Source: Chitinispirillaceae bacterium
GTDB lineage: Bacteria; Fibrobacterota; Chitinivibrionia; Chitinivibrionales; Chitinispirillaceae
Assembly (NCBI GenBank): GCA_016929595.1
Contig: JAFGIN010000128.1
Location: 1-63,190, forward strand
Length of the DNA stretch: 63,190 bases
Direction: 5' to 3'
Numbering within the stretch: the first letter of the stretch is position 1; every line of letters begins with the position of its first letter. Positions 23,312 through 27,103 of the stretch are shown here, piece after piece. A model generated the notes under the pieces. That model saw nothing but the letters and a program-made list of their open reading frames with translations. It did not search any database and had not been told where the DNA came from. Made by a program: the position numbers and the translations under genes.

Positions 23312-23313
23312 AC
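23246..23313. repeat. 68-bp direct repeat, left copy
   Basis: Identical base for base, in the same orientation, to 27483-27550. The left copy covers the last 22 codons and stop of the pilin-like gene. The two copies bracket about 4.2 kb of pseudogene scraps, Y-like RNAs and rtcBA. It could be an attachment-site duplication, a recombination scar, or two members of a larger dispersed repeat family; only a genome-wide search would separate these. A GAACT/GAATT pentamer run follows at 23305-23325. Confidence 0.9.
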
Positions 23314-23333
23314 TGAATTGAATTGAAACATGC

Positions 23334-23459
23334 CATCTCGGTAGCGATCTCTTTATAACATCGCTCGTGATCATAAATAACCAGGGTACCGCTTTTCTTA
23401 GCTCGTACACCGAAAACACTTTCACGAATATAATCCCGTATCGACAATTCATGGCTCAT
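23334..23459 (-). pseudogene. N-terminal remnant of a PglZ-like gene
   Basis: Reading minus from ATG23459 gives about 42 residues beginning MSHELSIRDYIRESVFGVR and continuing to a VIYDHERCYKEI block. The pattern IRDYI-RE-VF-R-(9)-VIYD-R-YK-I resembles the start of PglZ-domain phosphatases of BREX/Pgl phage-defence systems. The resemblance stops abruptly where the repeat-derived sequence begins, and the full protein would need several hundred more residues, so this is a truncated scrap. The family call is from pattern memory. Confidence 0.5.
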
Positions 23460-23514
23460 CTAATGCTCCTAGTCATTCCCTTTTCTGGATGCCGGTTTCC
23501 ACCGGGCATGACGT

Positions 23515-23575
23515 ATACACAATATTCACTTTGCAGACATTCCGGCGCAGGCCGGAATCCAGAACTCAGCATCAA
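23515..23575. repeat. Short dispersed-repeat-like palindromes (CATTCCGGCGCAGGCCGGAAT type)
   Basis: ATTCCGGC and GCCGGAAT around a short spacer at about 23540-23560, preceded by a related CATTCCC...GGGCATGAC stretch. Translated, it gives the RHSGAGRNPE-type peptide often seen where such intergenic palindromes occur in bacterial genomes. No gene is implied. Confidence 0.5.
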
Positions 23576-23581
23576 AAGTTA

Positions 23582-23880
23582 TGCAACTTATGCAACTTAT
23601 TGAAACTGGTTGCATGTTTCTGATTGTTTTTATATCTGTACTATTTAAAACAAGTTACACTGTCCATCCTTCTCAAAATTTAAAACAATTAATGGAACTT
23701 TATGGAACCTTTTGGAACTTATTGGAACAAATTCCATATTATTAATGTGATTCATAACATCACTATTTTAAAGAGGTTACCCAGTTCATCCATCTCTTAG
23801 TTTCAAACATTTTTTGAAAACTTCTGGAATTTTTGGTACTTAGTTTCAACTTATTGCAACTTGTTGCAATAAGTTGAAAC
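23582..23880. repeat. 10-bp phased repeat tract ending in a 17-bp-arm palindrome
   Basis: TGGAAC occurs at 23693, 23703, 23713 and 23723, exactly 10 bp apart. Related TGCAAC/TGAAAC words lie at 23582, 23591 and 23601. From 23821 six consecutive 10-bp blocks carry TGGAAT, TGGTAC, TTCAAC, TGCAAC, TGCAAT and TGAAAC. The last blocks form a perfect inverted repeat: GTTTCAACTTATTGCAA (23843-23859), CTTG, and its complement (23864-23880). One-helical-turn spacing suggests protein-binding iterons or a recombination site; no such role is shown. Confidence 0.75.
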
Positions 23881-23935
23881 TATTTCAAAGAACTGGCACA
23901 TTAAAATTGATGAACTCCTAACGCCTTATATTTTC

Positions 23936-24337
23936 GTGGAAAAAGAGGAGAGCTCTGAACTAATCTATTCTGATATTGATATGTTTACCCCATTCAGTTT
24001 TAAGGTAAAAGAAAGAAATTTACCTAAAAACCGTGATTACACTCTTGTAGAAAAATCTATTAACTTGAATATACGGCATACTCTGATTCAAGAAAGATTG
24101 TATAAAATGTTATGTGAGAAATATGGATATGAAAACGTTTCACTTGAACATCGTATTGGTGGAAAAAAGATTGACATTGTATTGAGGGATAATAATTCAT
24201 TTGTTTTTTATGAATCAAAAGTAACAATTCTGCAAAAGCCTGTATTCGTGATGCAATTGGACAACTCCTGGAATATGCTTATTAGCCAGACAAAAGTATC
24301 GGACATGGTTTTCGGATGCACATCAAGCGGCCTTTAG
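23936..24337 (+). pseudogene. PD-(D/E)xK-type nuclease pseudogene, frameshift plus stop
   Basis: The first ~95 residues include ERLYKMLCEKYGYENVSLEH, IGGKKIDIVL and FVFYESK, which fit a PD-(D/E)xK core (D in KIDIVL, ExK in YESK). After that codon the frame loses resemblance, but the +1 frame from about 24222 continues it perfectly: NNSAKACIRDAIGQLLEYAY, then a TAG where family members have Trp, then PDKS. So one frameshift and one nonsense change have broken the gene. The true start may lie upstream of GTG23936, since the frame is open and reads KIDELLTPYIFV. Such proteins are common orphan nucleases of defence islands. Confidence 0.65.
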
Positions 24338-24401
24338 TAATGAAGGCGGGTAATCTGCTGATGGAAGCGAGTTTTCCAAAGAGTTCGAGTGCTGTTGTTG
24401 C

Positions 24402-24426
24402 GTGGGTTCGAATCCCACTCATCCTG
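24402..24426 (+). pseudogene. tRNA T-arm/acceptor 3' fragment
   Basis: GTGGG-TTCGAAT-CCCAC forms a perfect T arm, followed by TCATCCT and G as a possible acceptor strand and discriminator. No matching 5' acceptor strand (AGGATGA) or D arm was found upstream or downstream, so this is not a whole tRNA. It could be an att-site remnant of an element that used a tRNA gene, or the relic of another Y-like RNA. Confidence 0.5.
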
Positions 24427-24528
24427 CAGGTCTCATGCACCAGCATTACTTTTTTTAGCAAAGGAGAGTTATCCGGTGAACACTGGGTTAATAAAATCAA
24501 TGCTATAACGTTCTAATAATAGAAATCA

Positions 24529-24593
24529 GGGGCGAATGCTGATAGAACTACATTCTGAAAACATGTTTCTGTTTTATCAAACGTTGTCGCCCC
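24529..24593 (+). ncRNA. Small structured RNA sharing the Y-like stem motif (no tRNA-like module)
   Basis: GGGGCGA (24529-24535) pairs perfectly with TCGCCCC (24587-24593). Inside, GAACTACAT (24545-24553) faces ATGTTTC (24563-24569) across a 9-base loop: the same GAA-CTA-CAT / ATG-TTTC helix with a CTA bulge that closes the two permuted tRNA-like elements downstream. It therefore looks like a minimal family member that keeps the protein-binding-type stem and lacks the tRNA mimic. It may be an independent RNA or part of the rtcB leader. Confidence 0.6.
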
Positions 24594-24609
24594 TCAACAT
24601 AAATCCGGT

Positions 24610-24746
24610 AAATGCCTGTGGAACTACATCGCTATTAACGACGTGGTCGCGGGTTCGAGTCCCGTCAGTTCCACTACGACCATTAAGGTGTTCGTAGTGG
24701 GACTGTAGCTCAGTTGGCAGAGCACGATGTTTCACAAATACTTGTT
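24610..24746 (+). ncRNA. Y RNA-like (YrlA-type) permuted tRNA mimic 1
   Basis: Order of parts is that of a circularly permuted tRNA. Stem strand GTGGAA-CTA-CATCG (24618-24631); T arm GCGGG-TTCGAGT-CCCGT (24649-24665); CAGTTCC (24666-24672) plus ACTACGA, a 12-base loop, TCGTAGT, and GGGACTG (24699-24705), so the acceptor stem is closed into a 14-bp hairpin; then TA, D arm GCTC-AGTTGGCA-GAGC (24708-24723); then CGATG-TTTCAC (24725-24735), which pairs back to the first strand with CTA bulged. The anticodon arm is thus replaced by a stem made from the RNA ends. This is the plan of bacterial Y RNAs, which lie beside rtcBA in Salmonella. RNA ends are not defined by sequence. Confidence 0.8.
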
Positions 24747-24776
24747 ACTGGATTATTTTTAACGTAATGGTTTACC

Positions 24777-24896
24777 AAATGCCTGTGGAACTACATTGGA
24801 TTTATGGGTCGCAGGTTCGAATCCTGTCTTTCAGAGTAATCTGATTGTAGCTCAGTTTGGTAGAGCAATAAAAATGTTTCACAAAAACCTTGTTGT
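24777..24896 (+). ncRNA. Y RNA-like (YrlA-type) permuted tRNA mimic 2
   Basis: Second copy of the same plan, 167 bp after the first. It begins with the same AAATGCCTGTGGAACTACAT. Stem strand GTGGAA-CTA-CATT-GGA-TTTAT (24785-24805); variable GGGTC; T arm GCAGG-TTCGAAT-CCTGT (24811-24827); CTTTCAG, loop AGTAAT, CTGATTG (acceptor-like hairpin with two T-T mismatches); D arm GCTC-AGTTTGGTA-GAGC (24850-24866); ATAAA-AATG-TTTCAC (24868-24882) pairing back perfectly with two 3-base bulges on the 5' strand. It ends about 30 bases before the rtcB ATG, so it may be processed from the rtcB leader or influence its translation. Confidence 0.78.
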
Positions 24897-24925
24897 TAAA
24901 CCTTCTTTATAAGAAAGGTATAAAA

Positions 24926-26431
24926 ATGAATACAGAAAATAAAGACAAACCCACAATTATTTCCACTGGAGTTGCAACAGGAATTCTTCCGTGCAGAAAC
25001 AGTGAAAGTAAACCTATTACAGTAATCGGAACCCAGGCTATCCGTGATGGCATCGAGGCGCATTGTCTTGAACAGGCACTCAATGCGCGTTCATCACCGG
25101 GTGTAACGCAGCTGGTCGTAAACCCGGATGCTCATCAGGGGTATGGTGCTCCAATCGGATGTGTTCTCGTTTCTCCAACACATATCTATCCGGGACCTGT
25201 CGGGGTTGACATTAAATGCTCGATGAGTCTGCTGCAACTGGATCTTCCGGTTTCTGAGATCGCGGATAAGCGGATCAGGCGGGATCTGATAAATGCGATT
25301 ACCGAGCGGACACCGACCGGTGCAGGTCAGGGACAGCGTGATGTAAAGAAATCACACAAGATCTCGTATGAACACGCTGTTCAGGCTGTTACTGAAGGTG
25401 CATCGAAACAGGTATGTGAAGCGATGCAGATTCCGGTGGCGTGGGCGCAACGATGTGAAGATGCATTTCATCGTGGCCATGATGGAACGATTGAGTCATT
25501 GACTGTGCGATTTGACAAAATAAAACATCTGAAAGTGTTCAGCAACATAAAAGAAAAACTTTCACAGCTTGGTTCGTATGGGGGTGGAAACCATTTTGGA
25601 GAATGTGAAGTTGTTTCAATTGAGAATGAAGATAAGAATATGACAACGGCAGATATTTTCGGACTGAAAAATGATTCCGTGGCGTTTTTATCACACTGTG
25701 GTTCGAGGGGATTTGGAAATATTCTGGCGACCAATCAGTTTAAAGTGCTGTTTGATCATTTTCAAAAATGGAACATCCCGCTGCCTGCTCAGGACCGGCA
25801 TCTGGTGTATGCGCCACTTGGTTCAACTGAAGCAAATGACTACCTTGACGATATGGCGTTAGGAGCCAACTTTGCAACGGTTAATCATTTGTTGATAAAT
25901 GCTCTTGTTCTTGAAGCATTTCAGGAGGTTATTCCCGGAGTAACTGGAAATCTGGTATATTTTATCAGTCATAACATAGCGAGAAAAGAGATCTATGAAA
26001 ATCGTGAATGCTGGGTGCATCGAAAAGGTGCAACAAGGGCATTTCCAGCGGGGCATTATGCACTTAAAGGAACGCCTTTTGAAAAAACAGGTCATCCGAT
26101 ACTTCTTCCGGGAAATCCGGTAAGTGGTTCAGTCGTTATGACCGCCGAAAAGGGAGCGGAATTGAGCTGCTACAGTGTAAACCATGGTGCTGGAAGGCAA
26201 TTAGGGCGTAAAGCTGCTTTTCGGGAGCTTAATCAGGGATTAGTTGATAAAGAGTTCAGAGATGCTGATATTTTAACTAATTGCCGGACATATCCTAAAG
26301 ATGAAGCCCCATCAGCATATAAGGACTTTGACGAGGTAGTACGCAGTGTTGAACTGGCAGGTCTTGCACGTACAGTTGCACGACTGAAAGCACGTTTTGT
26401 TATTAAGGATTCATCAGGAGCTGATGATTAG
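24926..26431 (+). CDS. rtcB: RNA-splicing ligase RtcB
   Basis: 501 residues from ATG24926 (GAAAGG site 8 bases upstream); the open frame starts at TTG24890 inside the RNA element. RtcB joins 2',3'-cyclic-phosphate or 3'-phosphate RNA ends to 5'-OH ends using GTP and Mn2+. Metal ligands appear in [16 protein letters not shown] and SHCGSRG; the late HNIARKE and the GMP-accepting His in [13 protein letters not shown] are intact. Length and motifs indicate a functional enzyme. It follows three Y-like RNA elements and is 8 bases ahead of a broken rtcA. No rtcR-type regulator or Rsr/Ro60 gene is in the window. Confidence 0.95.
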
Positions 26432-26439
26432 GGGATTAC

Positions 26440-27103
26440 ATGATTACTATTGACGGATCACAGAGCGAGGGCGGCGGACAGATTTTACGCAGTGCTCTTA
26501 CATTGTCACTTATTACACAACAGCCTTTTAAAGTTATCAATATCCGGGCTGGACGTTCAAAACCAGGCCTTATGCGACAACACCTTATTGCCGTTGATGC
26601 AGCGGTACAGGTAGGGGCAGGAAAAGTTGACGGTGCCTGTATGGGCAGCAGTGAACTGATGTTCACACCTGGAAAGGTACAAAGCGGTACCTATAATTTT
26701 GCAGTTGGTACTGCCGGAAGTGTTACCCTGGTACTTCAGACTATTCTTCCGGCATTGCTTCTTGCAAACGGTGGAAGTAAACTTGTTCTTGAAAGAGGCA
26801 CCCACAATCCATTTGCTCCGCCATGGGATTTTCTTGCGGGGAGTTAAAGCAGAAACAGTTGCCAGAGGTGTAGCCGATAAAGTTCTGGAATACCTGGCCG
26901 CAGACGATGTGCCTGTTGGTGAGTATCTGGCAGATCAGTTGATGCTCCCGTTTGCACTTGCCAAATCCGGATCGTATCGGACATTGCCATTATCACAGCA
27001 TTCGAAAACAAATCTTGAGGTTATAAAATTGTTTCTTGACACAAAGATCAGGATGGAAGAATGTCAGGATGGGTGCGTGAGGTTGCTATTTGCTGATAGG
27101 TAA
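26440..27103 (+). pseudogene. rtcA: RNA 3'-phosphate cyclase RtcA, internal deletion and frameshift
   Basis: The first frame (26440-26847) matches RtcA from the start: [46 protein letters not shown] and [10 protein letters not shown]. The +1 frame from about 26835 picks up near the RtcA C-terminus: DDVPVGEYLADQLMLPFALA and SQHSKTNLEV, including the position of the catalytic His. Roughly 120 residues between these, including the insert domain, are missing and the junction is out of frame. About 220 codons remain of a usual 340. This is a deletion, not a simple frameshift, so cyclase activity should be lost. Confidence 0.88.

Follow-up and report, generated by a model that had tools for sequence, protein, structure and literature searches.

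Results

Three Y RNAs precede rtcB

The window, that is, the whole stretch of DNA analysed here (63,190 nucleotides from a Chitinispirillaceae bacterium), carries on its plus strand a stem-only mini Y RNA (24528..24595), two YrlA-type Y RNAs with a permuted tRNA-like part (copy 1, 24604..24753; copy 2, 24771..24901), an intact rtcB gene (24926..26431) and an rtcA pseudogene (26440..27103). An earlier note on this DNA had proposed two permuted tRNA mimics of the YrlA type in front of rtcB, and both are borne out by matches to the Rfam family YrlA (RF02553), which in cmscan extend over the full length including the Y basal stem (copy 1, 24605-24754, 68.6 bits, E = 2.2e-15; copy 2, 24772-24902, 62.4 bits, E = 1.4e-13). 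The note had located both elements, at 24610-24746 and 24777-24896, within the full extents given above. The Rfam covariance search that it suggested does return YrlA (E about 2e-15 and 1e-13), with both scores below the gathering cut-off of 69 bits, which is a curator's threshold and not a biological feature; because the scores lie just under this value, a default Rfam scan is silent at the array. No other place in the whole genome approaches the scores of the two copies.

Both copies are built in the permuted tRNA order of T arm, closed acceptor hairpin and D arm. In copy 1, the T arm (GCGGGTTCGAGTCCCGT, 24649..24665) is followed by the acceptor-stem hairpin (CAGTTCC ... GGGACTG, closed by a long loop hairpin, 24666..24705) and the D arm (GCTC ... 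GAGC, 24708..24723), and the corresponding parts of copy 2 lie at 24811..24827 (T arm, GCAGGTTCGAATCCTGT), 24828..24847 (acceptor-stem hairpin) and 24850..24866 (D arm), all on the plus strand. The helix pairings listed previously exist, except that the acceptor stem of copy 2 (CTTTCAG/CTGATTG) contains two U-U mismatches and forms 5 of its 7 pairs. In both copies the RNA ends form a basal stem, in which UUGUUA/UUGUUG pairs with UAAAUGC/CAAAUGC and which carries a rare swap from G-C to A-U. Folded alone, copy 1 adopts the Y structure as its minimum (z = -4.1 against shuffles); the minimum fold of copy 2 alone is not the Y structure (z = -1.5). The permuted signature gave 0 matches in 200 dinucleotide shuffles of the window, searched on both strands, and both YrlA elements are far beyond chance.

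The array was described previously as two Y-like RNAs, which leaves out the mini Y RNA as its third member. This RNA consists of the basal Y stem (GGGGCGAAUGC / GUUGUCGCCCC) and an upper stem (UGAUAGAACUACA) without a tRNA-like part, and it shares the basal stem and the ACUACA upper stem with the YrlA copies. It can be aligned with 23 minis of homologous arrays, and a covariance model built from those 23 with the window left out (R2) finds it with 55.0 bits (E = 1.4e-12). All of its modelled pairs are standard, its fold is much more stable than those of shuffles (z = -4.14), and in the alignment of all 24 minis, window included, 12 of 16 pairs show changes on both sides. Basal and upper Y stems without a tRNA-like part are thus a conserved design of homologous arrays, to which the window mini conforms.

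Covariation in homologous modules supports the Y structure

Many of 80 loci encoding relatives of the window RtcB carry permuted modules of T arm, acceptor hairpin and D arm directly upstream of rtcB. From a scan of these loci we took 34 YrlA-type modules of other genomes, none from the window, to build the covariance model R1. This model finds copy 2 with 105.8 bits (E = 6e-27) and copy 1 with 100.6 bits (E = 2e-25, on the order of 1e-25); it also finds the mini, at 47 bits in an unfiltered search. Every pair modelled by R1 is standard in copy 1, as are 28 of 31 in copy 2.

The covariation between the two window copies, on which the earlier note relied, is thin evidence; the decisive evidence comes from the 34 homologues, in which compensatory change on both sides is seen at 23 of 31 pairs. 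In this alignment, which was made by sequence alone, two-sided cells number 216 compared with 58 in shuffles, 97.4% of cells are paired compared with 38-49% when partners are slid, and the covariation score is 0.575 compared with 0.168 for shuffles and about 0.1 for slid partners. The D stem is neutral evidence on covariation because it is invariant in the alignment. The basal stem with its AAUGC / UUGUCG-type motifs has covariation support in the homologues.

rtcB is intact and rtcA is broken

The rtcB gene encodes an RNA 3'-P/5'-OH ligase (PF01139, E = 2.7e-102; relatives include RtcB proteins of solved structure) and retains the catalytic Cys and His motifs GVDIKCS, GNHF, SHCGSRG, SHNIAR and NHGAGR. 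Its start is most likely the ATG at 24926, 25 nt past YrlA copy 2, rather than the upstream TTG at 24890. Downstream, PF01137 matches an N-terminal and a C-terminal piece of rtcA in different frames, and about 125 internal codons are missing; in intact homologues the two pieces are separated by about 370 nt. Neither the decay of rtcA nor the absence of Rsr/Ro was part of the earlier note's RNA-repair unit. A second, decayed copy of rtcB with many stops lies elsewhere in the genome (G000:C157:9940-10490), and searches with R1 and R2 found no Y RNA beside it. The gene for PNPase is present and intact.

Tandem YrlA-type mimics adjoining rtcB correspond, as previously noted, to the Salmonella rsr-yrlBA-rtcBA operon, in which Y RNAs lie beside rtcBA (PMC7790460). 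As in that operon (PMC7790460, PMC9879122), the Y RNAs of the window lie directly upstream of rtcB-rtcA on the same strand; the window differs in having three RNAs, a broken rtcA and no rsr, and in that matches in a sigma-54 promoter search are no more frequent than chance. It is thus not a full rsr-yrl-rtcBA operon, as rtcA is not intact and no rsr (Ro) gene is adjacent.

The place of Ro is empty

In homologous loci, Ro/Rsr occupies the position that corresponds to 23312..24527, which here holds no Ro gene or recognisable relic. Searches of the bacterium's own genome, whose assembly is 95% complete with 3.6% contamination, with the Pfam models TROVE (PF05731) and Ro vWA (PF25045) and with an alignment of Ro proteins (A1) found no Ro. 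Nor did A1 detect Ro in 168 genomes of the phylum, in which the TROVE search gave one match, partial and sub-threshold. The A1 search works, as it recovered Ro from 26 of 40 other genomes, among them all those with a Y array except L025. A Ro gene elsewhere in this genome is possible given the completeness of the assembly, and the loss of Ro may be old, the whole sampled phylum being without it.

Just upstream of the array, at 24340-24430, a T arm with an acceptor-like end has the appearance of a tRNA-Ser-like relic and adjoins an ORF fragment (23936-24337) of a possible nuclease. A hidden third YrlA in this segment was rejected, since its folding is no better than that of shuffles and its T-arm match covers only 17 nt. 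Farther upstream, positions 23600-23900 are rich in short repeats, both direct and inverted, of the type TTGGAACTTATTGGAAC / TTGCAACTTGTTGCAATAAGTTG.

Y RNAs are linked to Ro in related rtcB loci

The order Ro - Y array - rtcB occurs in 37 of the 80 rtcB loci, in Verrucomicrobiota, Planctomycetota and other phyla. The Ro proteins of these loci form a distinct clade with TROVE and Ro vWA domains and are encoded upstream of the Y array. Ro without Y was found in none of the 80 loci, neither of the two in 40, and Y signals without a detected Ro in three: L025 and L077, where the contig ends within a few kb upstream, and L072, which holds a decayed Y relic. The tightly linked partner of the Y RNAs is Ro, not RtcB. 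The homologous arrays comprise 2-6 Y RNAs (median 4), these counts being lower bounds from a model plus motif search, and the last Y RNA lies 24 to 1193 nt from rtcB over 40 arrays (39 homologous arrays and the window). In about 16 of the 37 loci the Y RNA that directly follows Ro is a mini, and the window array likewise begins with one.

The window order of mini, YrlA, YrlA and rtcB matches these loci (L014-L090), as do its motifs and its related RtcB; unlike the window, they carry a Ro gene before an array of as many as 6 Y RNAs in several designs, often with rtcA farther downstream. Compared with Rfam YrlA (RF02553), the window shares the basal stem (AAUGC ... UUGUCG), the ACUACA upper stem, the permuted T arm - closed acceptor stem - D arm and the two tandem copies adjoining rtcB, and it differs in its scores just under the cut-off, a genome without a Ro gene and the presence of a stem-only mini.

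RtcB of the window pairs with that of a Fibrobacter MAG (support 100/100) in a phylogeny of 81 RtcB proteins; this MAG lacks a Y RNA at the rtcB locus and encodes no Ro. Along the tree the Y label switches some 19 times, and therefore the Ro-Y unit has often been lost or moved. Decayed Y RNA relics before rtcB, with no Ro gene detected, at L053:4831-4968 and L072:1753-1861 suggest that erosion of Y RNAs after loss of Ro does occur.

Candidate YrlA RNAs in relatives from the same phylum were rejected, as the weak matches inspected (L007-L010, L137, L142 and L143) proved to be tRNA fragments or tRNA genes in tandem. At about 1500-1650 in L133, L134 and L135, from three Fibrobacterota genomes (G134, G121 and G131, respectively), there is a permuted tRNA module that resembles YrlA; it has a different basal stem without the AAUGC/UUGUCG motif, in a phylum without Ro, and in L134 a GAF/AAA+ regulator-like ORF follows it closely.

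Homologous arrays contain further Y RNA designs

In some Y RNAs of the homologous arrays (such as L020:3813-3915 and L022:4605-4695), the tRNA-like part comprises just a T arm and an acceptor hairpin. In at least seven others the tRNA-like part has its opening in the D loop (L020:3672-3799, L033:4352-4494, L061:3688-3814, L063:4291-4432, L075:1463-1588, L078:4304-4429 and L087:3680-3805), with GGUA-GAGC, a hairpin at the position of the anticodon arm, a T arm, a closed acceptor hairpin and UAGCUCA, such that the permutation is at the D loop and not at the anticodon. A fold of six sequences, a small and partly related sample, supports this arrangement, with both sides changed in 14 of 33 pairs. 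For some of these designs no description was found in a limited literature search that lacked the main Y RNA papers, and the mini and the D-loop-opened design may be new.

Discussion

We consider it likely that the mini and the two YrlA copies are the Y array of a Ro - Y RNA - RtcB repair operon, in a Fibrobacterota lineage that lost Ro and broke rtcA. The sequence itself shows the three Y RNAs and their homology, the conserved order, the absence of Ro and the break in rtcA. We infer from them that the window once had a full Ro - Y RNA - repair unit, and that the Y RNAs are probably transcribed with rtcB or just ahead of it.

Y RNAs normally work with the Ro protein and are thought to depend on it. 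The lower stem of bacterial Y RNAs is the Rsr binding site (PMC4726728), and the tRNA-like part of YrlA is both a substrate of tRNA-modifying enzymes and the link between Rsr and PNPase in the degradation machine RYPER (PMC8394870). In Salmonella, tRNA fragments induce the operon, and YrlA has been proposed to act as a competitive inhibitor of the anticodon nuclease (PMC7790460). In the ancestral system, the basal stem (AAUGC ... UUGUCG) would have been held by Ro, and the tRNA-like part, treated as a tRNA by tRNA-processing enzymes and PNPase, would have gated or tethered the nuclease. RNA damage would thereby have been sorted between decay by Ro/Y/PNPase and re-ligation by RtcB. Here, without Ro, the Y RNAs may persist with PNPase alone, they may engage anticodon nucleases and modifying enzymes as tRNA decoys, or they may be a remnant at an early stage that has not yet decayed.

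The last of these is the strongest rival, which we regard as a serious prospect while judging it less than even: with Ro lost only recently and rtcA broken, the Y RNAs would have no function left, erosion having had too little time. The broken rtcA and the decayed second rtcB copy are consistent with this and suggest relaxed selection on the repair unit; the slot of Ro is empty, with gene fragments in its place, the relics in L053 and L072 illustrate such decay, and deletion of Ro lowers Y RNA levels in organisms studied (PMC4726728). However, pairing and invariant motifs are kept in all three RNAs, with compensatory changes in the basal stem, so that the Y RNAs still look constrained rather than eroded; rtcB is intact; and the lack of Ro across the sampled phylum suggests that the loss may be old. 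Ro-independent action with PNPase or as tRNA decoys is possible, and a young remnant appears nearly as likely.

The earlier note saw the Y RNAs as possible substrates, guides or leader regulators of RtcB, roles for which support is weak. We think it improbable that the array is a cis-acting 5' leader of the rtcB mRNA that controls RtcB, or that its RNAs are cut and re-ligated by RtcB. The 25 nt between YrlA copy 2 and the rtcB start, and a search that found no terminator-like site between the array and rtcB, are what such a leader would have, but the wide range of distances between the last Y RNA and rtcB argues against an obligate one, and the Y RNAs follow Ro rather than RtcB, given that half of the 80 closely related rtcB loci (40) lack both. 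As for re-ligation, YrlA fragments were not detected in Salmonella when tRNAs were cleaved (PMC7790460). Permuted tRNA genes or a permuted tmRNA can be dismissed with near certainty, as tmRNA_permuted and beta_tmRNA match the T-acceptor part of copy 1 weakly, in part and far under cut-off, there is no anticodon or CCA, ARAGORN finds nothing, and the full-length YrlA match with the Y basal stem, the covariation of that stem and the linkage to Ro already refute this identity.

Returning to the Y array of a former Ro - Y RNA - RtcB operon, we tentatively propose a further reading, doubtful as it is, in which the mini and the YrlA copies were kept by selection after the loss of Ro and have PNPase, RtcB or tRNA nucleases as direct partners, and in which the Ro-RtcB arrays of many phyla would be sets of diversified tRNA mimics (stem-only, T-arm-acceptor, YrlA and D-loop-open). 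With three well-formed Y RNAs beside rtcB and no Ro, a Ro-independent function of Y RNAs becomes testable in this lineage. Moreover, the linkage of Ro, Y RNAs and RtcB is widespread in Verrucomicrobiota and Planctomycetota, where the Y RNAs form families of distinct designs.
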